From positions 1 through 32,608 of IMG/VR virus record IMGVR_UViG_3300030390_000415: 32,608 nt of DNA. One strand, given 5' to 3'. The position numbers and the translations under genes are program-made. Below the pieces are notes generated by a model, which had not been told where the DNA came from, made no database searches, and saw nothing but the letters and a program-made list of their open reading frames with translations. How positions within the stretch are numbered: position 1 is the stretch's first letter; the number at the start of each line of letters is the position of its first letter. The DNA is from a virus. Shown here one piece after another: positions 9,988 to 29,534 of the stretch.

Positions 9988-10012
9988 AACAAAATATTGA
10001 TAATGTTATTGT
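9988..10012 (+). promoter_or_regulatory. Late promoter 1 (terminase operon)
   Basis: AACAAA (9988-9993), a 15-base gap and TTGT (10009-10012), the last seven bases being TTATTGT. The spacing equals that at six other sites. It lies in the 65-base gap between the DnaA-like gene and the small terminase gene; transcription would start near 10019, giving a leader of about 25 bases. Confidence 0.75.
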
Positions 10013-10044
10013 TAGAATAGAATCATTAATGAAATTTTTTGATT

Positions 10045-10281
10045 ATGGATAAAAGAAAGTTTAACGGTGGTAACAAATCAGCAGGTAGAAAACCTAAAGC
10101 TGAAGAAGTAGCACTTATAGAAAAGCTAACACCACTTGAACCATTAGCGTTTGAAGCATTGCAAAAAGGTTTAGAACAAAAAGACTTTAAATATGTTCAA
10201 CTGTTCTATAATTACTATGCAGGTAAACCACGTGAAACAAAAGATATAAGTATCAACGAAGATTTACCAATATTTCTTTAA
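10045..10281 (+). CDS. terS: Terminase small subunit (probable)
   Basis: 78 residues from ATG 10045. A TTG at 10039 would add only two residues. The N terminus has NGGNKSAGRKPKAEEVALIE (5-24), an AT-hook-like basic motif common at the start of phage small terminases. The rest is helical and acidic towards the end. It is half the usual length, lacking a full oligomerisation domain, but its place directly before terL (one-base overlap) and after a late promoter supports the call. It would recognise the packaging site. Confidence 0.7.
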   Translation: MDKRKFNGGNKSAGRKPKAEEVALIEKLTPLEPLAFEALQKGLEQKDFKYVQLFYNYYAGKPRETKDISINEDLPIFL

Positions 10282-11450
10282 TGCAGGTTGCAAGAACCAA
10301 AGCACTAAACAAGTTATTAGAATTAGATAAAAGAATACGAGTAGTTAAAGGCGGAACATCAGCAGGAAAAACTATTTGTATTTTACTTATCCTAATAGAC
10401 TACGCCATAAGAAACGAAGGTAAAGAAATAAGTGTAGTATCTGAATCTATACCACATCTTCGTAGGGGTGCTTTTAAGGACTTCTGCCAACTCCTAAAAG
10501 GTTTAGGTAGGTATAATGATAGCCAAATAAATAAAAGCGTTTTAAAGTACACATTTACAAACGGTAGTTATATAGAATTTTTTAGTACAGACCAAAGCGA
10601 CAAACTACGTGGAGCAAGGCGTACAGACTTGTACATAAACGAATGTAACAATGTACCCTTTGATGCTTACAATCAGCTCGCAGTAAGAACATCAGGAACT
10701 GTCTGGTTAGATTATAACCCTTCTAGTTTATTTTGGGTAGACAAAGAAATAATAGGGCAAGAAGATGCAGACTATATAACCCTAACATATAAAGACAACG
10801 AAGTACTTGACCAAACTATTGTAAAGGAAATAGAGAAAGCCAAAGAAAAAGGTAAAACATCTACGTATTGGGCAAACTGGTGGCGTGTTTATGGTCTAGG
10901 TGAAGTTGGAAGTCTTGAGGGTGTGTGTGTTCCTGACTGGAAAGAAATAGATAACTTACCACAAGAAGCACGTTTGTTAGCTTATGGTATGGATTTTGGT
11001 TATAGTGTAGACCCTACAACATTAATAGCTTTGTATAAATGGAACAATGCCTATATCTATGATGAAGTTCTATATAAAAAAGGAATGCTTAACAGGGACA
11101 TAAGTAGGTTTTTATCACAAGCTGATATAAAAGAAAGTATTGTAGCAGATTCAGCAGAACCAAAATCAATAGCAGAACTGCAAGGGTATGGTCATAATAT
11201 ACACGGTGTAACTAAAGGTAGGGATTCAGTAGTATATGGATTGAACCTAATGAACCAAAATGAAATATACGTAACAGCAAGAAGTAAGAACCTTAAACGT
11301 GAATTAGGTGGATATGTATGGGCAAAGGATAAAGAAGGTAACCAATTACAAAAACCATCAGGGTTACATCCTGACTGTATAGATGCAGCACGTTACGTAT
11401 TAACAGACCAATTAGAAAACCCTAACAAAGGGCAATACTATATTTATTAA
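10281..11450 (+). CDS. terL: Terminase large subunit (packaging motor and nuclease)
   Basis: 389 residues. The ATPase part has Walker A VVKGGTSAGKT (21-31) and Walker B with coupling Glu, TDLYINE (115-121). The RNase-H-like nuclease part has GMDFGYSVDPTTL (236-248, Asp238), VADS (288-291, Asp290) and HPDCIDAARY (363-372), giving a complete acidic triad. It is PBSX/Terminase_3-like and of ordinary length. It pumps DNA into the prohead and cuts it. The stop is followed directly by a host-type promoter. Confidence 0.95.
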   Translation: MQVARTKALNKLLELDKRIRVVKGGTSAGKTICILLILIDYAIRNEGKEISVVSESIPHLRRGAFKDFCQLLKGLGRYNDSQINKSVLKYTFTNGSYIEFFSTDQSDKLRGARRTDLYINECNNVPFDAYNQLAVRTSGTVWLDYNPSSLFWVDKEIIGQEDADYITLTYKDNEVLDQTIVKEIEKAKEKGKTSTYWANWWRVYGLGEVGSLEGVCVPDWKEIDNLPQEARLLAYGMDFGYSVDPTTLIALYKWNNAYIYDEVLYKKGMLNRDISRFLSQADIKESIVADSAEPKSIAELQGYGHNIHGVTKGRDSVVYGLNLMNQNEIYVTARSKNLKRELGGYVWAKDKEGNQLQKPSGLHPDCIDAARYVLTDQLENPNKGQYYIY

Positions 11451-11491
11451 TTGTTAATTATTTGTTTATTAAATAAATAGTAGTATATTTA
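11451..11491 (+). promoter_or_regulatory. Host-type promoter with shared upstream element
   Basis: TTTG (11461-11464), a 19-base spacer and TATATTTA (11484-11491). Bases 11451-11473 are identical to 2080-2102, including the inverted repeat TTAAT...ATTAA over the -33 box. It drives the single small gene at 11527 and stands out inside the late region. Confidence 0.75.
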
Positions 11492-11526
11492 TAAAATAAA
11501 ACAAAGTTTAATTAATACAAAGACAA

Positions 11527-11742
11527 ATGAAAAATTATAAAAAAATATATAATGATACAAAAAATAAAGGTTCAGTTAAATTTACTTATAAAGGTGAAAA
11601 ATTCAGAACTTTTATAGATTGGGAAAAAGATTTTTGTTTAACTCATTATTCTACTAAATACTATTCTAATGGTCAAAATGCTTGGTGTGTAGGAAATGAT
11701 AAAGGATTAGAAATAAAATTAAATAACTTAATTAATATTTAA
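11527..11742 (+). CDS. Small unknown protein in its own transcription unit
   Basis: 71 residues, basic and aromatic, with KGSVKFTYKGEKFRTFIDW (14-32) suggesting a small beta-sheet fold, and two Cys. It lies between its own promoter and a strong terminator, like a moron gene expressed separately from the late operon. The third gene on (11938) also has a TYKG...IDY element, so the two could be distant paralogues. Function unknown; early or host-modifying activity is inferred only from the promoter type. Confidence 0.75.
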   Translation: MKNYKKIYNDTKNKGSVKFTYKGEKFRTFIDWEKDFCLTHYSTKYYSNGQNAWCVGNDKGLEIKLNNLINI

Positions 11743-11750
11743 AAACAACA

Positions 11751-11769
11751 GGGGGGCAACCCCCTTTTT
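11751..11769 (+). terminator. Terminator with GCAA tetraloop
   Basis: GGGGG (11751-11755) and CCCCC (11760-11764) close a GCAA loop of the stable GNRA class, followed by five T (11765-11769). Confidence 0.85.
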
Positions 11770-11789
11770 AATTAACCAAGAATTATATT

Positions 11790-11936
11790 ATGAAAACAAA
11801 GAATAGAATTGAAACCAGAATATTAAAAGCAATGTTTAGCTATAAGAATATAATAGTAGCTTCAGCTTGGGGATTAACAGCTTACGCATCTATGTACGCT
11901 TGGATGTATTTAATAATGTTTATATTTGAATTATAA
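11790..11936 (+). CDS. Small membrane protein
   Basis: 48 residues. A basic N terminus (about 1-19) precedes a hydrophobic region from 20 to 46 (VASAWGLTAYASMYAWMYL), one long or two short membrane helices. ATG 11790 and the next gene are separated by one base. Function unknown; it could affect the host envelope. Confidence 0.6.
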   Translation: MKTKNRIETRILKAMFSYKNIIVASAWGLTAYASMYAWMYLIMFIFEL

Positions 11937-11937
11937 G

Positions 11938-12156
11938 ATGCGGCAAGCGTGTTGGTACGAAGAAATATATGTAGTGCAGAAACCAACTGTAAAAGGAACT
12001 TATAAAGGTTCTGATGTTACCCTTCACATAGATTACAAAGGTAAGAACAAAGTAGAAGGTAATGGTACTACATACAAACAAAACAGTAGACTATTAGAAG
12101 ATAAAATAGAAGAAGCATATCAATATGCATATAAAAGGTTTATATTAGGCGAATAG
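11938..12156 (+). CDS. Small unknown protein, possible paralogue of the 11527 product
   Basis: 72 residues from ATG 11938. An upstream in-frame TTG (11926) lies inside the previous gene and is less likely. KGTYKGSDVTLHIDYKGKNK (19-38) resembles the TYKGEKFRTFIDW part of the 11527 product in order and spacing. The C terminus is helical. It is followed by a terminator. No function assigned. Confidence 0.65.
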   Translation: MRQACWYEEIYVVQKPTVKGTYKGSDVTLHIDYKGKNKVEGNGTTYKQNSRLLEDKIEEAYQYAYKRFILGE

Positions 12157-12200
12157 TTTGGGCAGCTACAAATGTCCGTTTCATTTTGTTAGTAGGATTG

Positions 12201-12225
12201 GGGTTGCAGTAATGTGACCCTTTTT
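12201..12225 (+). terminator. Terminator ahead of the tail operon
   Basis: GGGTTGC (12201-12207) pairs with GTGACCC (12214-12220) using two G-T pairs around a six-base loop, followed by TTTTT (12221-12225). The 12157-12200 stretch before it holds nothing I recognise. Confidence 0.7.
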
Positions 12226-12232
12226 CTATTTA

Positions 12233-12257
12233 TACAAATTACACTTAAAGTTATTGT
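12233..12257 (+). promoter_or_regulatory. Late promoter 2 (tail operon)
   Basis: TACAAA (one mismatch to AACAAA, 12233-12238), 15 bases, TTGT (12254-12257); the end reads GTTATTGT. Six bases separate it from ATG 12264, so the message would be leaderless or nearly so. Confidence 0.75.
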
Positions 12258-12263
12258 ATTAAT

Positions 12264-12926
12264 ATGAAGATTGAAATAAACGTACCTGATAGCCTAAAAG
12301 AAATTAAATTAGGACAATATCAAAAGTTTGAAAAGATAAACATTGAAGAAAATAAGGATACACCTTTCTTACTTCAAAAGATGGTACAGATATTTTGTAG
12401 TCTTGATTTAAAAGATGTGGCAACAATAAAATACAAAAGCGTACAGGAAATAGCACTACACTTAAACAAGGTGTTTGATACAAAGCACGACTTAATACCA
12501 ACATTTGAATTAGGCGGTGTTAAATTAGGTTTTATACCTGTACTTGATGATATGACATTAGGCGAGTATATAGACCTAGATAATAATTTAGGTGACTGGC
12601 AAACAATGCACAAAGCAATGAGCGTATTATTTAGACCAGTAACATTTAGCAAAGGACACAAATACCAAATAGAAGATTACAAAGGAATAGTAAATGATGA
12701 AGCTATGAAACAAGCACCTTTAGATGTAGTCTTTTCTGCTTTGGTTTTTTTTTATCGTTTAAGCAACGAATTAACGAAAACTATCCTGAACTTTTTACAG
12801 AAGGAAACGAACAAGAAACTAACTACACAGCAGAAGCAAACTTTGGGGTTAAGTGGGGATGGTATCAATCCTTATATGGACTCGCTCAAAAAGATGTTGC
12901 CAGATTTGACACAGTTACTAAACTAA
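12264..12926 (+). CDS. Tail assembly chaperone-like protein, short (zero-frame) form
   Basis: 220 residues in the zero frame. It starts as a beta-rich segment (PDSLKEIKLGQYQKFEKINI) and becomes helical. Around residues 161-164 the gene runs through nine T (12745-12753), after which both the zero frame (ending GDGINPYMDSLKKMLPDLTQ) and the -1 frame look coding. Short and frameshifted forms from one gene are the hallmark of tail assembly chaperones such as lambda G/GT, which bind the tape measure protein during tail assembly. No sequence family is recognised directly, and the tape measure lies 7.4 kb downstream rather than next door. Confidence 0.65.
   Translation: MKIEINVPDSLKEIKLGQYQKFEKINIEENKDTPFLLQKMVQIFCSLDLKDVATIKYKSVQEIALHLNKVFDTKHDLIPTFELGGVKLGFIPVLDDMTLGEYIDLDNNLGDWQTMHKAMSVLFRPVTFSKGHKYQIEDYKGIVNDEAMKQAPLDVVFSALVFFYRLSNELTKTILNFLQKETNKKLTTQQKQTLGLSGDGINPYMDSLKKMLPDLTQLLN
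12744..12755 (+). promoter_or_regulatory. -1 frameshift site (nine-T run)
   Basis: The zero-frame codons are GTT TTT TTT TAT. A run of T_TTT_TTT lets both tRNAs slip back one base and re-pair perfectly, then reading continues TTA TCG. Transcriptional slippage on the T-run could give the same product. Confidence 0.7.
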
Positions 12927-13006
12927 ATGTACATCAATGCCTTATGTATTTAGCATTTGAAAAGGAAAAAATACAAATAGAAAAACAATTAATAAAACGT
13001 AGATGA
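12752..13006 (+). CDS. -1 frame extension making the long chaperone form
   Basis: In the -1 frame the reading is open for 84 codons to TGA 13004-13006, with no start codon suited to separate translation near its beginning. It contains FGVKWGWYQSLYGLAQKDVA and LNVHQCLMYLAFEKEKIQIE, which read as a compact helical domain. The stop shares ATGA with the next gene, as real gene junctions here do. Joined to the upstream part it gives a fusion of 247 residues. A true ten-base T-run misread in sequencing could instead make this the only form. Confidence 0.7.
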   Translation, partial: LSFKQRINENYPELFTEGNEQETNYTAEANFGVKWGWYQSLYGLAQKDVARFDTVTKLNVHQCLMYLAFEKEKIQIEKQLIKRR

Positions 13007-13461
13007 AAGGTTTTTACAATTTAACGGATAAATTAAAAGATGCACTACTTGCAGAACCATTTGTAAATACAGTTACGTTTGGAAGTTTAGATGATGTAGA
13101 TTTAAACAAGCAGACAATCTTTCCTTTGTCGCATATTATAGTAAACAATACAACTGTAGGTAGTAAGACATTAACATTCAATGTAAGCATACTGGCAATG
13201 GATATAGTAGATATTAGTAAAGAAGCTACTACTGACATATTCGTAGGAAACGACAACGAACAGGATGTACTAAACACACAATTAGCTTTACTAACAAGAA
13301 TAATAAACACCTTACAACGTGGTGACCTATACACAGAACTTTATCAGGTAGAAGGTGATGTAAATTGTGAACCATTTGTAGATAGGTTTGAAAACAAGTT
13401 AGCAGGATGGGCAGCAACATTTGACGTATTAGTACAAAACGATATGACAATATGCGACTAA
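13003..13461 (+). CDS. Tail completion/terminator-like structural protein
   Basis: 152 residues with VNTVTFGSLDDVDLNKQTIF (21-40), a beta-sheet core, DIFVGNDNEQDVLNTQLALL in the middle and FENKLAGWAATFDVLV near the end. I recall very similar proteins in other flavobacterial phages, where they sit between terminase and tail genes; the fold pattern suits a tail terminator or neck protein, but this is inference. It is coupled to both neighbours (four- and ten-base overlaps). Confidence 0.65.
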   Translation: MKGFYNLTDKLKDALLAEPFVNTVTFGSLDDVDLNKQTIFPLSHIIVNNTTVGSKTLTFNVSILAMDIVDISKEATTDIFVGNDNEQDVLNTQLALLTRIINTLQRGDLYTELYQVEGDVNCEPFVDRFENKLAGWAATFDVLVQNDMTICD

Positions 13462-13994
13462 AGAAAACAGAAGCAGCATTAGAAGCATTTAAAAACTTTG
13501 TAATACAACAGGCACGTACAAGGTTAACTAAAAGCAAAAAGAACGTTTCTAAAGAACTTTATAATAGTTTAAAGGGTAATGTAAAGGCTATGCCTAATTC
13601 TATTCTTGTAGACTTTAAAATGCAAGATTACGGATATTACCAAGATAGGGGTGTAAAAGGTAAAACATCAACATACCCTGAAATAGCACAATATGGAACT
13701 TTAGCAAAATTTGGTTCAGGTAAAGGTGAAAAAGGTGGTTTAAGTGGTGGAATAAAAAAATGGGTTAAAGCACGAAGGTTTCAATTTAGAGATAAACAAA
13801 CAGGTAAGTTTATGTCTTATCAAAGTACAGCCTATTTAATAACACGGTCAATTTGGAATAAAGGAATTAAACCTTCTTTGTTTTTTACTAAACCTTTTGA
13901 ACAAGCATTTAAGAAACTACCTAATGAATTAATAGAAAAGTTTGGTTTAGATGTTGAAGATTTTTTAGCATATACATTAAAACAAGATAGATGA
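13452..13994 (+). CDS. HK97 gp10-like neck/tail protein (probable)
   Basis: 180 residues, strongly basic (many Lys). An N-terminal helix (ALEAFKNFVIQQARTRLTKS) precedes a Gly/Lys-rich loop (GSGKGEKGGLSGGIKKW, about 97-113) and IKPSLFFTKPFEQAFKKLP. Size, basic character and the RSIWNKGIKPSLFF segment fit the HK97 gp10-like head-tail or tail-completion family. It overlaps the preceding gene by ten bases and the next by four. Confidence 0.6.
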   Translation: MRLKKTEAALEAFKNFVIQQARTRLTKSKKNVSKELYNSLKGNVKAMPNSILVDFKMQDYGYYQDRGVKGKTSTYPEIAQYGTLAKFGSGKGEKGGLSGGIKKWVKARRFQFRDKQTGKFMSYQSTAYLITRSIWNKGIKPSLFFTKPFEQAFKKLPNELIEKFGLDVEDFLAYTLKQDR

Positions 13995-15448
13995 GTACAA
14001 AAATTAACATAAGAAGTCCATACTTTTTAGCATATACAGAACCTTCAATACCTACACCAGTTTTTGATTGCTTTATTGCTAACCCAAGAAACTTTACTAT
14101 AAATCAACAAGGTATTATTACTTTGCCTTCTTTAGATTTTGGTGTTATAACAGCACAAAATGCTGATAAGTATGCAACAGTCACTTCACCAACAAGTAGA
14201 ACACTTGCCATTACAATACAAATACCTACAGGTTTTAGCAATACAGATACAGATGGTTTTATTTCTTGTAATGTAACTGCAACACAACCTGCTTTTGTCA
14301 ATGGTACAACTTGTACAACAACGGTAACAACAAATGGTAGTATTCCTGCTAAAACAATAACAGTAGGTGGTAGTAGTTTAACAATAAATTTAGCATCTTT
14401 TTTTACAGGTGGTACAATAGCAGGTTTTAATATAATAAATGAGCATAGAAATTTAGTAACAACAAGTTTAAGTTCTTCAACATTAACACTTACATCTAAT
14501 CAAATAGGTGGTACTAAAACTATTTTTGTAGAAGCATTTGATAATACAGCAAACACCTGTACAGCAGTTCAATCTATAGCAGTAACTGTTAACGGTTTAT
14601 CAACTGCATTTAATTGTACTATTGCAAACCTTGCAGGGGGTGGTGGTTCTGTTTCACAAGCAGGTGTTATTACTAACCCACAATCAATAGCTGCAATTAC
14701 AGGTATAAGTTTAACAAGTGGTGGTTCTTTAATTACAAGTGTTGCAGCAAATACTGGAAGTTCAGCACAAAATGTAACACTATTTTTTAAACTTACTGCA
14801 CCAGTAGGGTATACAAATGCAGGATCAGTTATATTTTGTTCTAAAGTTTTTGAACAACAAGCAACAAATACATTACCTGCTTTTACTTGTGACATTGCAA
14901 ATTTAACAGGACAGGCAATAACAACTAAAGGAGCAATAAACGTAGGCACAACACAAACAGGTACTATTACAGATTTTACACCTATAAGTTTTGCATCTGT
15001 AACAACAGCAACAGAAAGATCAGTAACCTATACGGTTTTAATTCCAAGTGGTTATTCTAATACAGGTAATGGTAGCCAAACAATATCGTGTGCTAAAACA
15101 TTAACACAACCCGCAGGTCTAGCAGACTGTGGTACTAACACATATTATATTTCAGCAGGTAAAGTTTCACCTACTGATTTTTGTGATGATACCTATACAA
15201 CTTCAAAAGAATTACTTTCAACAGGTTCAACAATTAACGAAGGGTTAGGTGCTACAAGCTGTATAAAAGGTGCGCCATTTGCAGGTAAAGATTTATACTA
15301 TGCGGTTAGTACATCATCAATTAATTCAGGAGCAGGAATTGGTGTAGGTACTTTTAAGGTATGGCAAATAGATAACAATGGAGTAATAACAGATGTTTCA
15401 ATAGTAGGCTGTGATACAGGCGGTGGTGGAAGCGTTTCAAATTTATAA
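13991..15448 (+). CDS. Repeat-containing virion adhesin/tail protein
   Basis: 485 residues, rich in Thr, Ser and Gly. Three related beta-sandwich repeats can be seen, each starting F-x-C-x-I-A-N and ending with a P-x-G-(Y/F)-x-N segment, then I-(S/F)-C and Q-P-A or L-P-A: about 25-102, 207-298 and 298-376. A different, Ig-like insertion (about 103-206) separates the first two. The C-terminal domain (about 380-475) has four or five Cys and ends in Gly. This layout suits a surface-exposed tail or baseplate protein that binds host glycans. The paired Cys in each repeat could form disulfides. Confidence 0.65.
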   Translation: MSTKINIRSPYFLAYTEPSIPTPVFDCFIANPRNFTINQQGIITLPSLDFGVITAQNADKYATVTSPTSRTLAITIQIPTGFSNTDTDGFISCNVTATQPAFVNGTTCTTTVTTNGSIPAKTITVGGSSLTINLASFFTGGTIAGFNIINEHRNLVTTSLSSSTLTLTSNQIGGTKTIFVEAFDNTANTCTAVQSIAVTVNGLSTAFNCTIANLAGGGGSVSQAGVITNPQSIAAITGISLTSGGSLITSVAANTGSSAQNVTLFFKLTAPVGYTNAGSVIFCSKVFEQQATNTLPAFTCDIANLTGQAITTKGAINVGTTQTGTITDFTPISFASVTTATERSVTYTVLIPSGYSNTGNGSQTISCAKTLTQPAGLADCGTNTYYISAGKVSPTDFCDDTYTTSKELLSTGSTINEGLGATSCIKGAPFAGKDLYYAVSTSSINSGAGIGVGTFKVWQIDNNGVITDVSIVGCDTGGGGSVSNL

Positions 15449-15450
15449 TT

Positions 15451-16437
15451 ATGTCAATAAAAACAGCAGCATTAAATCTATATATTTATGAAGGAACGCA
15501 AAATTCTTACATAGCAAGTGATTTAAAATACAGGATACAAAAAGAACGTATAAATAGTGATACTAAAATTAACTTTGAAGTTGCAGAATTAATAAGAGAT
15601 TATATAGATCACAGTTTTAATAATGACTATGTTTCTAAATGTGTTTGGGTACTTGCCTATACGACATTGTTTGATGAAAATAATGAACCATATACTTACA
15701 GCAACCCACAAAGTAATTTATATCTTGCATTAGATGGTTATGGATATTTTGAAGAAGGTATTAACCCTGAACTTTCAAGGGGCGCATTAATAAGTTCTAA
15801 TGATATTTATTTATTAGAAGGTACAGCAGGAAAGTTACCAATATTTGCAGAAGGTGTTGGTAAAGTAATTATAGATTCTACTACTACACAAATAACAGAC
15901 AATGGGAATACTAATCAAAAAATACAATACTTAACTGTACCTGCTAACAGTTCTACCATTAAAGTTTTTGCTACAGATGATTCTACAGTTTTAAAAACCA
16001 TTACAGTCACAAATGTATGTGAACCAAAATTTACACCTTATAAAATTACTTTTGTAAATAAATTTGGTGTATATCAAGATTTGTATGCGTTTAAAAAAAG
16101 TACAGAAAACTTAAATGTAACTGATGAAAGATATAAACGTAATACGATTGTAAACAACACTACAAGCTACCCTACTTATTTAGGTCAAAGTGAAAGATAC
16201 AACGTGAATGGCAATACTTCTATAAACCTTAATACAGGTTTTGTTTCTGAAGATATGAACCAAACGATAGAAGAATTATTTTTATCTGAAAACGTTTGGA
16301 TAAGATACGATAATCAAACATTACCAGTTATACCTAAAACTAAATCACTACAATTTAAAACAAGTGTTAATGATAAATTAGCAAATTATACAATAGACTT
16401 TGAGTTTGCATTTAATAAAATTAATAGTGTACGTTAA
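15451..16437 (+). CDS. Tail-tip/baseplate structural protein
   Basis: 328 residues. It begins with a beta-sheet domain (LNLYIYEGTQNSYIASDLKY), continues with an acidic and Gly/Tyr-rich section, and contains CEPKFTPYKITFVNKFGVYQ (about 190-209) followed by a helix-poor C terminus. Position between the repeat protein and the giant tail protein, and general similarity I recall to flavobacterial phage virion proteins with a K-(I/V)-x-F-x-N-K-F-G motif, suggest a tail-tip component. Its stop overlaps the next ATG by one base. Confidence 0.6.
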   Translation: MSIKTAALNLYIYEGTQNSYIASDLKYRIQKERINSDTKINFEVAELIRDYIDHSFNNDYVSKCVWVLAYTTLFDENNEPYTYSNPQSNLYLALDGYGYFEEGINPELSRGALISSNDIYLLEGTAGKLPIFAEGVGKVIIDSTTTQITDNGNTNQKIQYLTVPANSSTIKVFATDDSTVLKTITVTNVCEPKFTPYKITFVNKFGVYQDLYAFKKSTENLNVTDERYKRNTIVNNTTSYPTYLGQSERYNVNGNTSINLNTGFVSEDMNQTIEELFLSENVWIRYDNQTLPVIPKTKSLQFKTSVNDKLANYTIDFEFAFNKINSVR

Positions 16438-20219: not shown

Positions 20220-20220
20220 T

Positions 20221-21962: not shown

Positions 21963-21964
21963 AT

Positions 21965-21989
21965 AACAAAAAACACTAAATATTATTGT
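21965..21989 (+). promoter_or_regulatory. Late promoter 3 (head operon)
   Basis: AACAAA (21965-21970), 15 bases, TTGT (21986-21989), ending TATTATTGT. Six bases then lead to ATG 21996, giving a leaderless or nearly leaderless message for the protease gene. Confidence 0.8.
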
Positions 21990-21995
21990 TTAATT

Positions 21996-23024
21996 ATGGA
22001 TATAATAGAACTTTTTATAGATGAAACAGATGAAGCAGCAGGGATAGAAGCCATAAGTGTGGTAGAAAATCCTGCTATTGAATCAGATTTTGTAGCATTA
22101 AAGAATAAAGAATTTAAACTTGCTGAAGTAGACAAAGAAAAACGTATCCTTATGGGTGCAGCTTTGATACCTAACAAACCTATTTACCGACAAAGTGGTG
22201 AACAAGAATATTATATATACTTTTCTAAAAACACAGTACGTAAAGCAAGTGAATTATTCTTTATTAATGGTAACCAAAATAATTCAACACTTGAACACGA
22301 ACTTGAATTAAAGGGTCTTACAGCGGTTGAAAGTTGGATAGTGGAATCTGAACAAGATAAAAGCAGAATGTACGATTTAAACGTACCTATAGGCACTTGG
22401 ATGGTATCTATGAAGGTAAACAATGATGATGTTTGGAAAAAAGTTAAAGCAGGTGAAGTAAAAGGCTTTAGTATAGAAGGCTACTTTGCAGATAAATTAG
22501 AAAGACCAAACGAACCTGTAAAAGACGAAATGAAAGAACCGTGTTACGATGGTTACGAAATGATAGGTTTTAAAATGAAAAACGGTAAAAAAGTACCAAA
22601 CTGTGTACCAATAAAACAATCTAAAATGAGTAAAGAAGAAATAGCTAAAGCTAAAATAGAAGAACTAAAACAATTGTTTAGTATTGAAAAAGTAGAATTA
22701 GGTATAATGCAAGATTTACAAAAAGCAATAAATAAACATATATCACAAAAGAAAAAAATAGATAATAATATTAGCAAATGGTATGGTGATTTATTTGGTA
22801 TTAGAGATAAATTTGTAAAATTAGAAAGTGATTTTAAAGAATTTAATTCAAGTACAGATGATTTAAAAAAATATGTAAAAGAAGCTGAAAATATGGCTAA
22901 ACAATTAGGTGTTAATTCAAGTGCTGTAGAAGGGTATCAAGAAGCAAAAGCATATATAAACACAAGTGAAGATATAGTTCAAGAATATAAAGAAGCAAAA
23001 AAATTAGAATCTAAAATAGGATAG
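21996..23024 (+). CDS. XkdF-like prohead protease with C-terminal coiled coil
   Basis: 342 residues. The start (IELFIDETDEAAGIEAISVV, ENPAI) and ILMGAALIPNKPIYRQ (residues 48-63), followed by YYIYFSKNTVRK, match the XkdF-like serine protease domain, which trims capsid proteins during head maturation. A short Cys pair domain CYDGYEMIGFKMKNGKKVPN with C at both ends follows (about 184-204). The C-terminal 130 residues are a helical coiled coil, perhaps the scaffold. The fusion of protease and scaffold-like parts is common in phages. Late promoter 3 lies immediately upstream. Confidence 0.8.
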   Translation: MDIIELFIDETDEAAGIEAISVVENPAIESDFVALKNKEFKLAEVDKEKRILMGAALIPNKPIYRQSGEQEYYIYFSKNTVRKASELFFINGNQNNSTLEHELELKGLTAVESWIVESEQDKSRMYDLNVPIGTWMVSMKVNNDDVWKKVKAGEVKGFSIEGYFADKLERPNEPVKDEMKEPCYDGYEMIGFKMKNGKKVPNCVPIKQSKMSKEEIAKAKIEELKQLFSIEKVELGIMQDLQKAINKHISQKKKIDNNISKWYGDLFGIRDKFVKLESDFKEFNSSTDDLKKYVKEAENMAKQLGVNSSAVEGYQEAKAYINTSEDIVQEYKEAKKLESKIG

Positions 23025-23025
23025 T

Positions 23026-23373
23026 GTGAGTAAAATACCAAGCCCACAAAACGATAGTAGGGCGTGTTTATGTCCTGATGGTAAAACATATTCACGTGAA
23101 TGTTGTGATGGTAGCTTTCAAGCACAAGGTATTGGTAACATAACTAAATCATCTATTACAAGATACTACACAGTAACTAATTGTAATGGTGGTACAAAGC
23201 ACATACATACGCACGATATTGACTTAACAGTAGGTGATGTTTATTTCTTAACCTTTGTTCATCATAACCATACAGACTGCTACACAATAACAGCTACAAG
23301 AAGCAACGGACATTTTGAAATAAGTGCTGCAAATGCTTATAATAATTGTGCAGCTTGTCAAGCAGCAAACTAA
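23026..23373 (+). CDS. Cys/His-rich head-region protein
   Basis: 115 residues from GTG 23026, one base after the protease stop. ACLCPDGKTYSRECCDGSF (13-31) carries four Cys, with more Cys (C53, C85, and a final C-x2-C) and a His-rich stretch (HIHTHDI, then FVHHNH). It may bind zinc or other metal. Similar CLC...CCDG starts occur, from memory, in other Bacteroidota phage structural genes. Its role in the virion is unknown. Confidence 0.65.
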   Translation: MSKIPSPQNDSRACLCPDGKTYSRECCDGSFQAQGIGNITKSSITRYYTVTNCNGGTKHIHTHDIDLTVGDVYFLTFVHHNHTDCYTITATRSNGHFEISAANAYNNCAACQAAN

Positions 23374-23378
23374 AACAC

Positions 23379-23403
23379 AACAAACAGTTAAAAATATTAT
23401 TAT
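23379..23403 (+). promoter_or_regulatory. Late promoter 4 (variant)
   Basis: AACAAA (23379-23384), 15 bases, then TTAT (23400-23403), where other copies have TTGT; the end is ATTATTAT. Spacing is the same as in the others. ATG 23419 follows by 15 bases after an A-rich AAAAAAGGG that may act as a ribosome-binding site. Confidence 0.6.
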
Positions 23404-23418
23404 AATAAAAAAGGGATT

Positions 23419-23847
23419 ATGAAACCAGACGTAAAAAGAATACTCGCAAAGTTAAGTGAAACTAAAGTTGAGTTGGCAACTGAAAAAGTAGAATTAACTT
23501 TTGTAATGGATGCAAACAAGTTAATAGATGAAATAGATGACAGTAGCGACTATATATTTAAATTAGGCTCAAATATAGATGGTGCTATGGCTCAAATAAA
23601 TTCATTAGTAGATGATTTAAGCAAACTTAATCAAGATTTAGTAGATGCAGGAAAAAGCATTGATGGTGATATAGGTGAAATAAAATCAGTAAAAGATAAA
23701 ATAAAAAAAGCTGCTGATGGAATTGGTGCAGACCCAAAAAGTATTAAAGTATATAACGAACTTGATGATATGATAGGTGTTATAAAAAAAGCTAAAGATG
23801 AAGCATCTTTTTGGGCAAAAGAATCAAAAAGACCCTTTAAAATATAA
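23419..23847 (+). CDS. Helical coiled-coil head protein, similar to the protease C terminus
   Basis: 142 residues, acidic and helical throughout. The region GIGADPKSIKVYNELDDMIG (about 107-126) resembles LGVNSSAVEGYQEAKAYI near the end of the protease-scaffold protein, with the same spacing to flanking helices. The two could be diverged copies of one scaffold domain. It follows its own late promoter (23379) and is followed by another at 23846. Possibly an assembly scaffold or internal head protein. Confidence 0.6.
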   Translation: MKPDVKRILAKLSETKVELATEKVELTFVMDANKLIDEIDDSSDYIFKLGSNIDGAMAQINSLVDDLSKLNQDLVDAGKSIDGDIGEIKSVKDKIKKAADGIGADPKSIKVYNELDDMIGVIKKAKDEASFWAKESKRPFKI

Positions 23848-23870
23848 CAAACTAATTACTAATTTATTGT
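23846..23870 (+). promoter_or_regulatory. Late promoter 5
   Basis: AACAAA (23846-23851) overlaps the preceding stop by two bases; then 15 bases and TTGT (23867-23870), ending TTTATTGT. Seven bases separate it from ATG 23878. Confidence 0.75.
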
Positions 23871-23877
23871 AATATAT

Positions 23878-24474
23878 ATGAAAGCAACAGATATGTTAAA
23901 CGAAGTAAAAAAACTAATTGGTGTGGAAGCATCAGTTGAAGTTAAATTAGCACAAGCTGAACTTGAAAATGGTACTATCATTGAAAGTGAATCTTTTGCA
24001 GAAGGTAGTGAAGTATTTATTGTTACTGAAGATGAGCGTGTAGCTTTACCAGTAGGTGAATATAAACTTGTAGATGGTGAAACACTAATTGTAGAAGAAG
24101 AAGGTATTATAGCTTCGGTTGGTGCAGTTGAAGAAGCACCTGCTGAAGAAGAAGTAGAAGCAGAAGAAAAACCTAAAGAAGAAATGGGTTATGCTACTAA
24201 AGAAGAACTTCAAGAAGTTAAAAAAATGGTAGAAGAAATAAAAGCATTGCTTGAACCTAAAGATCAAGAAATGTCTGATGAAGGTTCTACATCTGTTAAA
24301 TCAGAAGAAACAACTACCAAAACTGTTTACGCTGAAAAAGAAGAAATGAGTGAAGTAGAAAAAGTATCTCATAATCCAGAAAGCGAATCTAAAAAGAATA
24401 CAAATCTTTATTCACAAAAAAGAAGTGGTAACACTTTGGATAAAGTAATGGATAGAATATCAAACTTTAAATAA
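23878..24474 (+). CDS. Acidic scaffold-like protein
   Basis: 198 residues, with a beta-rich N-terminal domain (about 18-85: TIIESESFAEGSEVFIVTE, then VALPVGEYKLVDGETLIVEE) and a very acidic Glu-rich region (about 86-145, EEAPAEEEVEAEEKPKEE) leading to a basic end. This shape, just before the decoration-like and major capsid genes, fits a head scaffold or scaffold-attached protein that is removed on maturation. The base sequence around 24120-24190 is an unusually purine-rich run of GAA codons. Confidence 0.6.
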   Translation: MKATDMLNEVKKLIGVEASVEVKLAQAELENGTIIESESFAEGSEVFIVTEDERVALPVGEYKLVDGETLIVEEEGIIASVGAVEEAPAEEEVEAEEKPKEEMGYATKEELQEVKKMVEEIKALLEPKDQEMSDEGSTSVKSEETTTKTVYAEKEEMSEVEKVSHNPESESKKNTNLYSQKRSGNTLDKVMDRISNFK

Positions 24475-24481
24475 ATAAAAA

Positions 24482-24889
24482 ATGTCAACAACAATAACAA
24501 CAAGTAACAGCGTATTACGAGCGAGATCAAAGCAAGAAACTTTGACAACTACTCAAGATATTAGTATTAATGATGCAGGTGTAGAATTTAATATTGCTAC
24601 AGATGCTAAAGTTATGACCCTTCCTGCAATTACAGCAGAAAATATAGGTGCAGAATTTACATTTAGAAATACAGGAGCAGATGGTAATAACATTATTACA
24701 ATTTCACCTGCTGCAACTGACGCAATACACGGAACAATAGCAGCAGTATCTTCAGGTGGTGTGGATAACAAAGATTGGATTAACACAAAAGCATCTGCAA
24801 ATAAAGGTGACTGGTGTACACTTAAAGCTGTAGCACTAACTGACTGGTATATTACTGGCGGTGATGGTGTATGGGCAAGTGAAGCATAA
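24482..24889 (+). CDS. Capsid decoration-like protein (probable)
   Basis: 135 residues of beta-strand character (Ile/Thr/Ala-rich, PAITAENIGAEFTFRNTGAD near 49-68), ending in a short Gly/Trp tail. Placed seven bases after the scaffold-like gene and directly before the major capsid gene, it may decorate the head or be a short head fibre. No enzymatic motif. A surface protein of the tail is possible but less likely from its position. Confidence 0.55.
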   Translation: MSTTITTSNSVLRARSKQETLTTTQDISINDAGVEFNIATDAKVMTLPAITAENIGAEFTFRNTGADGNNIITISPAATDAIHGTIAAVSSGGVDNKDWINTKASANKGDWCTLKAVALTDWYITGGDGVWASEA

Positions 24890-24914
24890 TAAATAATAAA
24901 TTAAAAAATATAAA

Positions 24915-25847
24915 ATGGCAACAACAACTTCAATAACTACTTCTTATGCAGGTGAATTTGCAGGACAATACATTTCTGCTGCACTTTTAAGTGGTACAAC
25001 TTTAGATAACGGATTAATTACCGTTAAACCTAATATTAAATTTAAAGAAGTAATCAAAAAAGTATCAAGTGATGACATCGTAAAAGATGCTTCTTGTGAC
25101 TTTGATTCGACTTCAACTTTAACGTTAACAGAACGAACGATTGAACCGACTTACCTCAGCGTAAATTTACAATTGTGCAAAAAAGATTTCCAAAATGACT
25201 GGGATGCGATCTCTATGGGATATTCAGCACACCAATCTTTACCAACTTCTTTTAGTGATTTTTTAATTGCTCACGTAGCATCTAAAGTAGCACAAAGAAC
25301 TGAACAAAGTATATGGAATGGTGCAGCAGCAACTAACGGACAGTTTGCAGGATTTGCAGAACTTATGTTAGCAGATGGTGATGTAACAGATGTAGCAGCA
25401 GTTGGTGGTGGAGTAAATGCAGGAAACGTAATCGCTCAATTAGGGGCTGTGGTAGATGCAATAAATTCTAACCTATATTCAAGCGAGGATATGACAATCT
25501 ATGTTTCTCAAAATGTAGCACGTTCTTACGTGAGAGCATTAGGTGGCTTTTCTGTCGCTGCAACGTCAAATGCAGGTACAAACGATAGCGGTACACAATG
25601 GTTCAGCGGTCAAGCATTAACATTTGATGGAATTTCTATTGCAGTAGCAAACGGATTATCTGATAACAGAATGGTTGCAGCAGAAAAATCTAATTTATAC
25701 TTTGGTACTGGTCTTTTATCTGACCAAAACGAAGTAAAAGTAATTGATATGGCTGACATTGATGGATCACAGAATGTGCGTGTAGTAATGAGATTTACAG
25801 CAGGTGTACAATACGGAATAGGTTCTGATATCGTGCTCTACAGTTAA
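24915..25847 (+). CDS. Major capsid protein
   Basis: 310 residues. A Thr/Ser-rich N terminus precedes FKEVIKKVSSDDIVKDASCD (44-63), the central domain with ISMGYSAHQSLPTSFSDFLI (98-117), and a C-terminal domain with VKVIDMADIDGSQNVRVVMR (274-293) and FTAGVQYG. Length, soluble mixed alpha/beta composition and the position between scaffold and tail-tube genes fit an HK97-fold capsid protein. There are only two cysteines. The gene is followed by a strong terminator, consistent with high output. Confidence 0.75.
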   Translation: MATTTSITTSYAGEFAGQYISAALLSGTTLDNGLITVKPNIKFKEVIKKVSSDDIVKDASCDFDSTSTLTLTERTIEPTYLSVNLQLCKKDFQNDWDAISMGYSAHQSLPTSFSDFLIAHVASKVAQRTEQSIWNGAAATNGQFAGFAELMLADGDVTDVAAVGGGVNAGNVIAQLGAVVDAINSNLYSSEDMTIYVSQNVARSYVRALGGFSVAATSNAGTNDSGTQWFSGQALTFDGISIAVANGLSDNRMVAAEKSNLYFGTGLLSDQNEVKVIDMADIDGSQNVRVVMRFTAGVQYGIGSDIVLYS

Positions 25848-25869
25848 TTAACTGATAATCAAATAGTTA

Positions 25870-25907
25870 GGGTAGGTAAGCCAATTAAGTGCCTACTTAC
25901 CCTTTTT
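25870..25907 (+). terminator. Terminator after the major capsid gene
   Basis: A long stem, GGGTAGGTAAGC-type arm (from 25870) paired with a GCCTACTTACCC-type arm (to 25902), with one G-T and one mismatch, followed by five T (25903-25907). Confidence 0.85.
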
Positions 25908-25908
25908 A

Positions 25909-25933
25909 TTTAAAAAACTAACTAATTTATTGA
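25909..25933 (+). promoter_or_regulatory. Degenerate late promoter 6
   Basis: ACTAATTTATTGA here matches ACTAATTTATTGT in late promoter 5, but the upstream box is TTTAAA instead of AACAAA. It sits between the capsid terminator and the tail-tube gene (ATG 25967). Confidence 0.45.
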
Positions 25934-25966
25934 TTTTCAATAAGTTACAAAAAAAAATTAAACGAT

Positions 25967-26557
25967 ATGAGTTGTGATTTAACACTTGGGAGAAAAGAAC
26001 CTTGTAAAGATGTTGTAGGTGGCCTGAAAAACGTATATTTTGTAGAATTTGGGGGGTTAGGAACTGTAACCTTAACAAATGATGAAATAACAAATATGAC
26101 AGGAACTACTATTGGTGGAACTGCAAATTCTTTAACTGCTTTTAAATATGAATTGAAGGGTAATAGTAGCTTTGAGCAAACTATAACTTCAAGCCGTGAA
26201 AACGGTACGACTTTCTTTGACCAAACACTTACGCTTACTTTGAAAAAATTAACGAAAGAAGATAACAAAGAATTAAAACTATTAGCTTATGGTAGACCAC
26301 ACGTAGCTGTAGAAGATTACAACGGTAATGTGTTTATGATGGGTCTAACTCACGGTGCAGATGTAAATGGGGGTACTATTTCTTCAGGTGCTGCAATGGG
26401 TGATTTATCAGGCTATACTTTAACGCTAAACGCACAAGAAACATTAGCTGCAAACTTTATGGATTCAGATACTAAAGATATAGACTTCCCATTTAGTGTA
26501 GTAGATTACGCAGGTATGGATGGAACTATTTTAATTACATTAGGTACAAACTCCTAG
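25967..26557 (+). CDS. Major tail tube protein (probable)
   Basis: 196 residues. Beta-rich, with KYELKGNSSFEQTITSSREN (about 60-79), then FFDQTLTLTLKKL (84-96) and HGADVNGGTISSGAAM (127-142). Strand-turn-strand repeats in this order, moderate size and single-copy position after the capsid gene suit a tail tube subunit. It stands between two terminators, so it can be made in large amounts. A decoration protein is the main alternative. Confidence 0.65.
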   Translation: MSCDLTLGRKEPCKDVVGGLKNVYFVEFGGLGTVTLTNDEITNMTGTTIGGTANSLTAFKYELKGNSSFEQTITSSRENGTTFFDQTLTLTLKKLTKEDNKELKLLAYGRPHVAVEDYNGNVFMMGLTHGADVNGGTISSGAAMGDLSGYTLTLNAQETLAANFMDSDTKDIDFPFSVVDYAGMDGTILITLGTNS

Positions 26558-26580
26558 TAATAATTAATTTTAATAATTAA

Positions 26581-26605
26581 GGGTGGCTATATGCTGCCCT
26601 TTTTT
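26581..26605 (+). terminator. Terminator after the tail tube gene
   Basis: GGGTGGC (26581-26587) and GCTGCCC (26593-26599) form a seven-pair stem with two wobble pairs around TATAT, followed by six T (26600-26605). Confidence 0.8.
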
Positions 26606-26630
26606 ATGCTTTTAGCGGAGCATTAATAAT

Positions 26631-26655
26631 AACAAAAAACAAATAATATTATTGT
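26631..26655 (+). promoter_or_regulatory. Late promoter 7 (portal operon)
   Basis: AACAAA (26631-26636), 15 bases, TTGT (26652-26655), ending ATTATTGT. Seven bases separate it from ATG 26663, so the message is leaderless or nearly so. The preceding terminator makes this promoter necessary. Confidence 0.8.
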
Positions 26656-26662
26656 TATATAT

Positions 26663-27007
26663 ATGATAGTATTAAAGGAAAGCGGATCAGCGCAAAACAT
26701 TGATTTTATACCAAGAGAATTTACAGCAGGTGCATCTTACACAGTTAAAATAAAAGATGAAACCCAAAACAAAGAAGTGTATAGTCAAGCAACAAGCGGA
26801 ATATCACAAAGTTTATATTTCAATAGATATAGTGCTGTATTTCCAGTAAAACAAGATATTTATTATATGCTTACAATACTATCAGGTACAAATGAAATTT
26901 TTAAGGATAAAATATTTTGTACTAATCAAACAGACTTACCACAATACACAATTAATAGCGGTGAGTATGTAACTAATGCTTCAGATAACGAATTTATTAC
27001 AGTATAA
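26663..27007 (+). CDS. Small beta-rich protein before the portal
   Basis: 114 residues, with strands throughout (SYTVKIKDETQNKEVYSQ near 27-44 and YYMLTILSGTN) and one Cys. It is first in the unit under late promoter 7, and its stop overlaps the portal start by one base. Possibly a connector or head component. No family recognised. Confidence 0.6.
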   Translation: MIVLKESGSAQNIDFIPREFTAGASYTVKIKDETQNKEVYSQATSGISQSLYFNRYSAVFPVKQDIYYMLTILSGTNEIFKDKIFCTNQTDLPQYTINSGEYVTNASDNEFITV

Positions 27008-28917
27008 TGGATAACCTACATATAGTTAATTTAGCTTCATACAATAGACCGCAAATAAGCGAAGATAAAAACCGTGATTGGGTAAACTATGGTGAAGATA
27101 ACGACTACTATTCTTACCTAATTAAACTTTACACAGAATCAACAACTAACAACGCTATTATAAATGGCGTTTGTAATATGGTATTTGGAAGGGGAATTGA
27201 TGCTTTAGATAGCAGCAGAAAGACAAACGAATATGCAGCTATGCGTTCTATCTTTTCTGATAAGTGTTTGCGCAAAGTAGTTTTAGATTTAAAGCTATTA
27301 GGCGAAGGTTCATTTCAGGTACTATACAAAAACAGTAAAGTAATTAAATCAGAACACTTTCCAAGACAAACATTGCGAGCAGAACGTTGTAATAAGGATG
27401 GTGAAATTGAAGCCTACTATTATTTTCACGATTGGGCAAAACTAAAGCGTAGTGATGAACCTAAAAGGATAGCATCATTTGGTTTTGGTAATGGTAAAGA
27501 ACCTGAAATAAAAATTATTAAAAGATATGTAAGTGGGTACGATTATTATTGCCCTGTAGATTATCAGGGGGGTTTAGCATACGCTGAATTAGAATCAGAA
27601 GTAGCAGACTACTTAATTAACGATGTACAAAATGGTTTTAGTGGTACTAAAGTAGTAAACTTTAATAACGGTGTACCTGACCACGAAAAACAAATAGAAG
27701 TTAAAAACGACGTAATGCGTAAGCTGACTGGATCACGTGGTGAAAAAGTAGTTATTGCTTTTAACAACAATGCAGAAAGTAAGACAACAGTTGATGACAT
27801 ACCGTTAAACGATGCACCACAACATTATGAATATCTTTCTAATGAATGTTCAAATAAGTTAATTGTAGCACATAGGGTAACAAGTCCTTTACTTTTAGGA
27901 ATTAGAACAGATAACAATGGTTTAGGGTCTAATGCAGACGAAATAAAGACCGCTGCGCTACTTTTTGACAACATAACTATAAAACCATACCAAGACTTAA
28001 TAACGGAGTGTATAGACGATGTATTGGCGGTTAACGGTATTAGTTTAAAACTTTACTTTAAGACATTACAACCTTTAGCATTTATTGATACAGATAATGC
28101 TATTACAGACGAATCACGTGAACAAGAAACGGGGGTTAAAGATGAATATTCTTTATCAAGTCAAATAGTAGATAATGATTTTGCAATTATAGATGATAGA
28201 TTAGGCTATGCAAAAAAAGAAATGGCAATAGAAGCAGCTAAAAATATAGGTTGCAAAAGTTATCACGAACACGAATATGAAGGTAAGATTTGGTATATGC
28301 CTTGCGAAAAGCATATAAAAGATAATTTAAGTGCTGAATTTGATGATGACAAAATGATAGAATTGCTTCAAGATTTTGGTGAAGATGAAGATTTAGAAAA
28401 CTGGGATTTAGTAGATGAACGTGAAGTAGATTACAAACAAGAAGAAGCATTAGACAAAATGGTAGGTTTAGCTTCTACAGGTACTGCAAGACCAAACGCT
28501 AAAAGCAAACAAGACGAAGTAACAAATGACTTAACAGCTTTTAAAGTACGTTACCAATATGCACCATTAACAACACAAGCAAATAGTAGGGACTTTTGCA
28601 AGAAAATGGTAGCTGCTAAAAAAATCTATCGTAAAGAAGATATAATGCAAATGAGCCAACGTGCTGTAAATGCAGGATGGGGTTTAAGTGGTGCTGCTAC
28701 TTATGATATATGGCTATACAAAGGTGGTGGTGCTTGTCATCATTTCTGGATGCGTAAAACGTATATGGCAAAAGGTGTACAACCTGACGCAAATAACCCT
28801 AAAGCAGAAGTATCAGTAAACAAAGCAAAAAAAGAAGGTTTTAAACCTGAAAAAAACAATTCAAAGGTAGCTAAACGTCCAGTTGATATGCCTAATAAAG
28901 GATTTGTAAATAAATAA
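27007..28917 (+). CDS. Portal protein with C-terminal extension
   Basis: 636 residues, long for a portal. The N-terminal 400 residues follow the portal pattern: RDWVNYGEDNDYYSYLIKLY (23-42), NNAIINGVCNMVFGRGIDAL (48-67), a wing region, and HRVTSPLLLGIRTDNNGLGS (about 294-313). From about 490 a separate domain carries SRDFCKKMVAAKKIYRKEDI (about 534-553) and GGGACHHFWMRKTYM (575-589), with conserved Cys and His. The portal makes the DNA entry ring. The added domain resembles minor head proteins of the Mu F type in its Cys/His motifs and may aid assembly or ejection. Confidence 0.8.
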   Translation: MDNLHIVNLASYNRPQISEDKNRDWVNYGEDNDYYSYLIKLYTESTTNNAIINGVCNMVFGRGIDALDSSRKTNEYAAMRSIFSDKCLRKVVLDLKLLGEGSFQVLYKNSKVIKSEHFPRQTLRAERCNKDGEIEAYYYFHDWAKLKRSDEPKRIASFGFGNGKEPEIKIIKRYVSGYDYYCPVDYQGGLAYAELESEVADYLINDVQNGFSGTKVVNFNNGVPDHEKQIEVKNDVMRKLTGSRGEKVVIAFNNNAESKTTVDDIPLNDAPQHYEYLSNECSNKLIVAHRVTSPLLLGIRTDNNGLGSNADEIKTAALLFDNITIKPYQDLITECIDDVLAVNGISLKLYFKTLQPLAFIDTDNAITDESREQETGVKDEYSLSSQIVDNDFAIIDDRLGYAKKEMAIEAAKNIGCKSYHEHEYEGKIWYMPCEKHIKDNLSAEFDDDKMIELLQDFGEDEDLENWDLVDEREVDYKQEEALDKMVGLASTGTARPNAKSKQDEVTNDLTAFKVRYQYAPLTTQANSRDFCKKMVAAKKIYRKEDIMQMSQRAVNAGWGLSGAATYDIWLYKGGGACHHFWMRKTYMAKGVQPDANNPKAEVSVNKAKKEGFKPEKNNSKVAKRPVDMPNKGFVNK

Positions 28918-28920
28918 GAA

Positions 28921-29424
28921 ATGGCAGAAGCAATACTAATAACACGAAAAGATGTAGTAAAGTTTACTGCTATGAATGGTGGAGTAGATACGGACAAGTT
29001 TATACAGTATATAAAGATTGCCCAAGATATTCACGTACAAAACTATTTAGGTACAGACTTACTACAGGCTATACAAACTAAAATTAAAGCAGGTAACTTA
29101 ACAGGAGACTATTTAAGCCTTGTTACAGACTACGTAAAGCCTTTACTTTGTCATTGGGCAATGGTGGAATACTTACCTTTTGCAGCTTACACAATAGCTA
29201 ACAAGGGCGTTTACAAGCATAGTTCAGAAAATGCAGAAAATGTATCAAAAGAAGAAGTAGACTTTCTAGTAGAAAAAGAACGTACAACTGCACAATACTA
29301 TACTGATAGATTCATAGATTATATGAGTTTTAACGCAAGTTCAAAGTTTCCTGAATATTACAGTAATAACGATGAAGATATTTCACCTGATAAAGATGCA
29401 AATTTTAGCGGATGGGTATTGTAA
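28921..29424 (+). CDS. Head-tail connector/adaptor protein
   Basis: 167 residues, helical, with DKFIQYIKIAQDIHVQNYLG (25-44) and DYVKPLLCHWAMVEYLPFAA (69-88). The size, the YLG followed by a long helix, and position directly after the portal (three-base gap) match phage connector proteins of the gp6/DUF6712 type that seat on the portal ring. Its last bases overlap a possible small frame at 29412. Confidence 0.75.
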   Translation: MAEAILITRKDVVKFTAMNGGVDTDKFIQYIKIAQDIHVQNYLGTDLLQAIQTKIKAGNLTGDYLSLVTDYVKPLLCHWAMVEYLPFAAYTIANKGVYKHSSENAENVSKEEVDFLVEKERTTAQYYTDRFIDYMSFNASSKFPEYYSNNDEDISPDKDANFSGWVL

Positions 29425-29534
29425 GATATAAACCAAAAGAAGAAAACGTAAATAAGTTGAAACAGTATTTAACTTATATAACAAAAACTAAAAAAAGTAA
29501 TTGTATTATATATACAAAAAACATTAAAAATTAA
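29412..29534 (+). CDS. Possible 40-residue basic protein
   Basis: ATG 29412 overlaps the connector stop by 13 bases. It encodes MGIVRYKPKEENVNKLKQYL and then a low-complexity Lys/Tyr/Ile end. The second half coincides with late promoter 8, so only the first 20 residues look like natural protein. It could be a real small gene with a promoter inside or a chance frame. Confidence 0.4.
   Translation: MGIVRYKPKEENVNKLKQYLTYITKTKKSNCIIYTKNIKN
29480..29504 (+). promoter_or_regulatory. Late promoter 8 (fibre operon)
   Basis: AACAAA (29480-29485), 15 bases, TTGT (29501-29504), ending GTAATTGT. ATG 29537 follows by 32 bases with an A-rich leader. Spacing equals the other late promoters. Confidence 0.7.

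Follow-up and report, generated by a model that had tools for sequence, protein, structure and literature searches.

The window analysed here, the whole of the 32.6 kb virus record G000, raises a question of transcriptional control: what are the short bipartite elements, AACAAA followed at a fixed distance by TTGT, that recur ahead of its late genes, and what reads them? The main genes all run forward. The first ~10 kb are of early type, with recombination, single-strand-binding and helicase-like proteins recognised by eye and Mom-like and DnaA-C proteins recognised by Pfam, and from ~10 kb on there are terminase, tail, protease, capsid and portal genes. The portal assignment comes from similarity to the portal annotated in a cultured phage, and the protease gene matches Peptidase_S78_2 in Pfam (E=6e-17). 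Since positions ~32511–32607 repeat the first ~98 bases (1–98), the record is probably complete, as a circularly permuted or closed genome. The Mom-like DNA modification protein (8625–9335; Pfam Mom 6e-67) was found in only one of 16 large motif-bearing relatives, and the ParB-like gene that precedes it (7835–8650) is equally rare. A small protein encoded at 9524–9979 has a DnaA C-terminal DNA-binding domain and possibly acts in origin binding or regulation.

The original prediction listed seven elements and took them for a phage-specific family of late promoters. All seven are where it placed them, with exactly 15 bases between AACAAA (or TACAAA) and TTGT (or TTAT) (Table 1). A loose pattern, WACAAA-N15-TTRT, gave nine matches over both strands of the window against 3.0 expected. 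The sharper pattern WACAAA-N12-TWATTRT matched seven times on the forward strand, at these same sites, and never on the reverse, with a mean of 0.10 matches per strand and a maximum of 2 in shuffled controls. A spacing of 12 was the sole enriched spacing in the window (seven sites), all others from 5 to 29 giving 0–1. When both strands were scanned with a position weight matrix (PWM), the seven sites scored 23–27 bits and the next best match in the window, on the minus strand, 12 bits; the matrix was built from clade sites including the seven, and it is the shuffle and strand tests that are independent.

Table 1. Predicted promoters and the sigma-like gene of the window. Distances run from the end of the downstream hexamer to the ATG; leaders are predictions.
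Feature	Position	Strand	Elements or domains	PWM (bits)	Gene downstream	Distance to ATG (nt)	Remarks
Predicted late promoter 1	9988–10012	+	AACAAA 9988–9993, −10 hexamer TATTGT 10007–10012	27.2	small ORF 10045–10281, followed by the terminase large subunit gene	32	predicted RNA start ~10019, predicted leader ~26 nt
Predicted late promoter 2	12233–12257	+	TACAAA...TATTGT	23.2	12264–12926	6	predicted leaderless
Predicted late promoter 3	21965–21989	+		27.3	XkdF-like protease gene 21996–23024	6	predicted leaderless
Predicted late promoter 4	23379–23403	+	AACAAA...TATTAT	24.2	23419–23847	15	
Predicted late promoter 5	23846–23870	+		26.8	23878–24474	7	
Predicted late promoter 6	26631–26655	+		26.0	26663–27007, then portal-like gene 27007–28917	7	downstream of terminator-like hairpin 26579–26601
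Predicted late promoter 7	29480–29504	+	AACAAA...TAATTGT	25.3	29537–29704	32	6–7 nt in several relatives
Host-type match, candidate early promoter	2091–2120	+	TTG-N19-TATGTTTG				early region; only intergenic match in the window with both elements
Very probable ECF-like sigma factor gene	4853–5404	+	183 aa; region 2 ~residues 15–84, region 4 ~118–170				early region

All of the sites are in late gaps and none lies within 1–9.9 kb, which bears out the claim that early genes lack them. The proposed difference from host-type promoters also stands, as the TAnnTTTG −7 element is absent at all seven sites. The host-type match at 2091, scored with the consensus TAHHTTTG from PMC6847099, is a candidate early promoter and a contrast to the late class. 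An eighth copy had been proposed at 25909, but it reads TTATTGA, has no AACAAA, scores below 9 bits and is not a member of the family; the gap before the 25967 orthologue carried no motif in the relatives displayed. A hairpin is visible at ~25869–25905, unlisted by the hairpin scan. It had also been noted that four of the eight sites lie near terminators. This was the case for two of the seven, where the scan found terminator-like hairpins in the same gap (12200–12221 before site 12233, and that before site 26631).

A total of 199 related loci, gathered through relationship of their sigma, capsid or terminase, were examined for the same pattern. WACAAA-N12-TWATTRT occurred 189 times in the forward and four times in the reverse orientation, and a spacing of 12 alone was again enriched; neither here nor in the window (7:0) did reverse-strand or intragenic matches come near the number in late gaps. 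The consensus of 66 non-redundant sites, ttTAACAAA-N12-TTATTGTAwwAnTA, is longer than the motif first described, and sequence farther upstream is unconserved. Twenty of 30 near-complete records carry 2–7 sites each. Conservation of the gaps had been put forward as a check, and the relatives' sites do precede orthologues of the genes starting at 10045, 12264, 21996, 23878, 26663 and 29537, except where a non-homologous gene takes the orthologue's position; at many orthologues of promoter 1 the ATG is 26–32 nt away. Blind enumeration of ATG-anchored dyads returned the same motif at or near the top in nearly all motif-bearing relatives, and the variants AAAC-15-CGTTA and CAAA-14-CGTTA in G013 and G025. 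A home-made EM motif search on 70-nt upstream regions fitted coding sequence and was uninformative, and the dyad enumeration was used instead. Strand bias, fixed spacing, location in late gaps, orthologous placement and absence of the host element together make a phage-specific late promoter family a real and well supported reading of the repeated element.

Two features are additions to the original prediction, a candidate recogniser and a fixed distance to the ATG. The candidate is ORF 4853–5404, which matches PHROG 1740 'RNA polymerase sigma factor' (2.8e-7). Its Pfam match to Sigma70_r4_2 (E=0.0046, 17 bits) lies under the cut-off of 25.7 and the best Sigma70_r2 match among its homologues has E 0.017; as the ORF has no match to either family above the curated cut-off, we call it ECF-like and do not file it as a member of the ECF family. 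An AlphaFold model of moderate quality (pLDDT 73, pTM 0.45) has two helical domains and a low-confidence linker, corresponding to regions 2 and 4 only, with no region 1.1 or 3. Foldseek comparison of this model with the PDB gave top matches that were nearly all ECF sigma factors (probability 0.95–1.00, E from 2e-3), with a TM of ~0.3 over the whole chain that plausibly reflects flexible placement of the two domains. A sequence search of the PDB returned SigL at E=0.029 amid spurious antibody matches. Homologues are present in 28 of 32 and 36 of 37 large related records, the exceptions being fragments of 20–25 kb. From sequence and model, ORF 4853–5404 is very probably an ECF-like sigma factor, and we propose it as the recogniser of the seven promoters.

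Several further observations concern this gene and its relatives. ORF 4662–4877 adjoins it, just upstream. Stop codons fall within the aligned sigma stretch in L181/G025 (14900–15190), in G051, G055 and G067 (TAG) and in G042, G053, G056, G057 and G069 (TGA); they may be ends of shorter proteins, frameshifts or recoding, and most of them may simply fall beyond the true gene end. The loci screened for tRNA genes had none. G052 and G069 each have two sigma-like matches, one of them partial. A tblastn search of cultured phages with the window sigma gave no match, and aligning it against genome contigs as a host or prophage look-up gave nothing; the capsid look-up in genome contigs matched two MAG contigs. 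A capsid gene with 54% identity is carried by L259 (CP070803.1, 130686–151540), on a contig deposited as the chromosome of a Candidatus Woesearchaeota MAG; a phage that was binned or assembled wrongly is the likely explanation, or else an unusual provirus.

We propose, with a probability of about 0.82, that the seven elements are late promoters read by the phage-encoded sigma factor and that they mostly give leaderless mRNAs. AACAAA would act as a −35-type element and the TATTGT/TATTAT hexamer, spanning −12 to −7 relative to the start point, as the −10. Host core RNA polymerase carrying the ECF-like sigma would read these elements; the sigma would be made early, presumably from host-type promoters, and would then turn on the terminase, protease, head, portal-region and tail genes. 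With ordinary sigma geometry RNA would start 7 nt past the hexamer; in four of the seven cases this position falls on the A of the ATG or on the nucleotide before it. As the clade diversified, the −10 hexamer would have changed jointly with sigma region 2, with the −35-like element and the ATG spacing held constant. The analysis shows the element itself, its strand and spacing statistics, where it is placed, the sigma fold assignment and the concerted hexamer change within genomes; from these we infer sigma binding, late timing of transcription and the start point.

Ten records have late-gene homologues but no site, most of them with more divergent sigmas. In the motif-less relatives AACAAA and the ATG spacing are kept and another −10 hexamer is in place. 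The classes found 12–7 nt before the ATG are TATTGT, CGTTAT, AGTTAT, TTATAT, GGTTAT, TATTAT and CGTACA, a series obtained from four further capsid scans with start codons placed by alignment. In a sub-clade comprising G011, L272, L283, L295, L296 and L320 a TTATTTTTAAA-like element stands in place of the hexamer and the ATG is farther off; this G011-type class (TTTTTAAA), with its longer distance to the ATG, is apparently not leaderless. The variant series also bears on whether the element could be a dyad operator, an AACAA...TTGTT inverted repeat bound by a repressor or other regulator, and not a promoter core. The halves are indeed near-palindromic in several window sites (ATAACAA...TTGTTAT at 26631), but relatives that keep AACAAA have CGTTAT, AGTTAT, TTATAT or CGTACA in place of the other half and so lose the symmetry, and orientation to the gene is invariant (189:4), something that a true dyad does not require. 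An operator is therefore very unlikely.

The hexamers change in concert within a genome. Identical hexamer pairs among non-orthologous late promoters of the same genome numbered 84, compared with 10.7 (maximum 25) when promoters were shuffled among genomes, and a control stretch gave 1 against 0.4. The excess of within-genome similarity was z = 16 at the −10, 3.8 in the spacer and 0.8 upstream. A single trans-acting reader in each genome would be expected to leave change of this concerted kind. Between genomes, distance at the −10, computed from non-orthologous promoters only, correlated with sigma distance (r 0.65, or 0.44 as a partial correlation given the capsid), with values near 0 for spacer and upstream sequence.

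It might be argued that the elements are promoters but that their covariation with sigma reflects common descent only, some other phage factor giving the specificity. In a set of 30 genomes sigma was not the single best predictor of the hexamer: correlation with the −10 was r=0.85 for the portal, 0.77 for sigma and 0.53 for the DnaA-like protein, and several other proteins matched or exceeded sigma, so that common descent explains part of the covariation and is a strong confounder. Region 2.3–2.4 is the part that contacts the −10 in known sigma factors. When portal and capsid were held constant in 49 genomes, region 2.3–2.4 (region boundaries were placed by eye from the alignment and model) kept a partial r of 0.34, reached in 0/500 permutations, while region 4 gave 0.02 and the upstream control 0.03. 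Holding region 4 constant as well as portal and capsid gave 0.37 for region 2.3–2.4 and −0.02 for the upstream control. It is this region-specific partial test that supports a pairing of sigma and hexamer, and the −35 element showed no covariation with region 4. Promoter specificity thus appears to co-evolve with sigma, partly confounded by descent, and we consider descent as the whole explanation unlikely.

The same correlations are relevant to a different reader, a host sigma factor assisted by a phage DNA-binding activator such as the DnaA-C protein of 9524–9979 acting on the TTAT-containing half. This protein (Bac_DnaA_C, E=3e-15) is found in 16/16 large motif-bearing relatives and is encoded at the end of the early block, adjoining promoter 1, and the DnaA box, TTATCCACA, likewise starts with TTAT. 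However, the late sites have no host −7 element TAHHTTTG, leaving host sigma nothing to hold, and activators do not normally bind at the −10, where the variable half lies. The protein was also detected by tblastn in only 6/10 variant phages, and its divergence follows the −10 less closely than does that of sigma. We find an activator of this kind quite improbable, and continue with the phage sigma as reader.

The portal and capsid led to a cultured relative, Nonlabens phage P12024S (Inhavirus), with 40% and 33% identity to the window, respectively. Its gene 33, upstream of the terminase, is sigma-like and annotated as Sigma-70 region 2. About seven gaps contain AACAAA-N14-CGTTAA-type elements, and blind enumeration recovered AAAC-17-CGTTA seven times forward and never in reverse, with 0.25 expected. 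At most late sites the ATG, as annotated by others, is ~6 nt past CGTTAA. In sequence terms P12024S shows the same promoter architecture as the window.

Where transcription would start can be estimated from known promoters. In Flavobacterium johnsoniae the invariant T−12 A−11 of the −7 element fix the RNA start (PMC6847099). Laying the TA of TATTGT on T−12 A−11 puts +1 at the A of the ATG at the 6-nt sites, and the start of phage 7-11, 6–9 nt past its element, leads to the same placement. The hexamer ends 6–7 nt before the ATG, as expected of a leaderless promoter, at four of the seven window sites (ATGs 12264, 21996, 23878 and 26663) and at 73 of 97 sites in near-complete relatives. At the other three window sites leaders of ~9–26 nt are predicted, and the class is not uniformly leaderless. 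In 87% of late promoters the base just before the ATG is T. Among the ordinary genes of these phages 63% have A at −3 and ~60% have A at −11/−12, both signals of leadered initiation. In late promoters the hexamer occupies −11/−12, but A at −3, a leadered-translation signal, is kept in the pooled late set (0.66), so the evidence from initiation signals is mixed. We infer that most late mRNAs should be leaderless, with the RNA beginning on the A of the AUG or one nucleotide ahead of it.

The nearness of the downstream half to the ATG, mostly a fixed 6–7 nt, would also fit a translation-initiation element in the mRNA that is no part of the promoter, and non-Shine-Dalgarno signals, among them A at −3, −6 and −12/−13, are indeed in use in Bacteroidota (PMC6847099). 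Yet this half keeps a single spacing from AACAAA even at sites where the ATG is 15–32 nt off, it switches type genome-wide along with sigma, and ordinary genes of the same phages have their A at −3 and −11/−12 without it. A translational element is extremely unlikely, and the half is better read as the −10 of a promoter.

Phage sigma factors that replace the host sigma and so switch gene classes are known from SPO1 (gp28 and gp33-34) and T4 (gp55). The system proposed here resembles them in this swap, although the sigmas are not close in sequence. T4 late promoters consist of a single TATAAATA element and need a clamp and co-activator, unlike the bipartite promoter of the window. Bacterial ECF sigmas (Mycobacterium tuberculosis SigH and SigL; RpoE, AlgU) share region 2 and region 4 and a compact bipartite promoter with the window system and are its closest solved folds, but the window sigma is only distantly similar to them in sequence, as the SigL E-value indicates. 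The portion of PMC8948821 that deals with Salmonella phage 7-11 describes a sigma, gp47, with bipartite late promoters GTAAtg-(16)-aCTA and RNA starts 6–9 nt downstream. As proposed for the window, this is a phage sigma of the sigma-70 kind with late promoters of fixed spacing, the host sigma serving early genes; unlike the window, it belongs to an unrelated phage of another host phylum, has other sequences, and no start-codon coupling is described in that portion. The window carries a phage-encoded sigma-like protein and a recurrent, non-host, bipartite, one-strand promoter of fixed spacing before late genes, and by these sequence features it would belong to the same class and work like the 7-11 system. 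The phiEco32 sigma gp36, covered in the same portion, likewise drives middle and late genes, from promoters tAATGTAtA with start sites 6–8 bp downstream, but these are single elements without a −35, whereas the window keeps both (PMC8948821).

The F. johnsoniae sigma-A element TAHHTTTG is AT-rich like the window sites, and its T−12 A−11 coincide with the TA of TATTGT when +1 is set at the ATG, but the window sites lack TTTG and have a strong −35-type AACAAA, the F. johnsoniae −33 element being weak (PMC6847099). The late promoters of phiKZ, TATG as cited in PMC5312081, similarly take in the start-point region, though their reader is a phage multisubunit polymerase and not a sigma with host core. 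One group of marine Bacteroidetes phages has been reported to have a sigma-70-like gene (PMC5332604). We found no description of these promoters in the open-access literature, and late gene control in the common small marine Bacteroidota phages appears to be undescribed. What is new is the occurrence in Bacteroidota phages, the fixed distance between −10 and ATG, and the switching of hexamers throughout the clade.

With the promoter rule late operons can be annotated in many uncultured genomes; it also points to their likely recogniser and predicts that late mRNAs are leaderless, a prediction open to test in the cultured pair of P12024S and Nonlabens/Persicivirga IMCC12024. The paired changes in region 2.3–2.4 and the −10 provide a natural data set on the evolution of sigma specificity, and possibly orthogonal sigma/promoter pairs. 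On balance we favour the view that this clade of mostly uncultured Bacteroidota phages has a leaderless virion-gene transcriptome together with a natural series of sigma/−10 pairs, one for each of the hexamer classes listed above. Host mRNAs of F. johnsoniae are mostly leadered, with a mean of 33 nt (PMC6847099). If this view is true, the phage sigma places the RNA start on the AUG, and the late switch also brings a shift to leaderless initiation of translation, although the host's own mRNAs mostly carry leaders.
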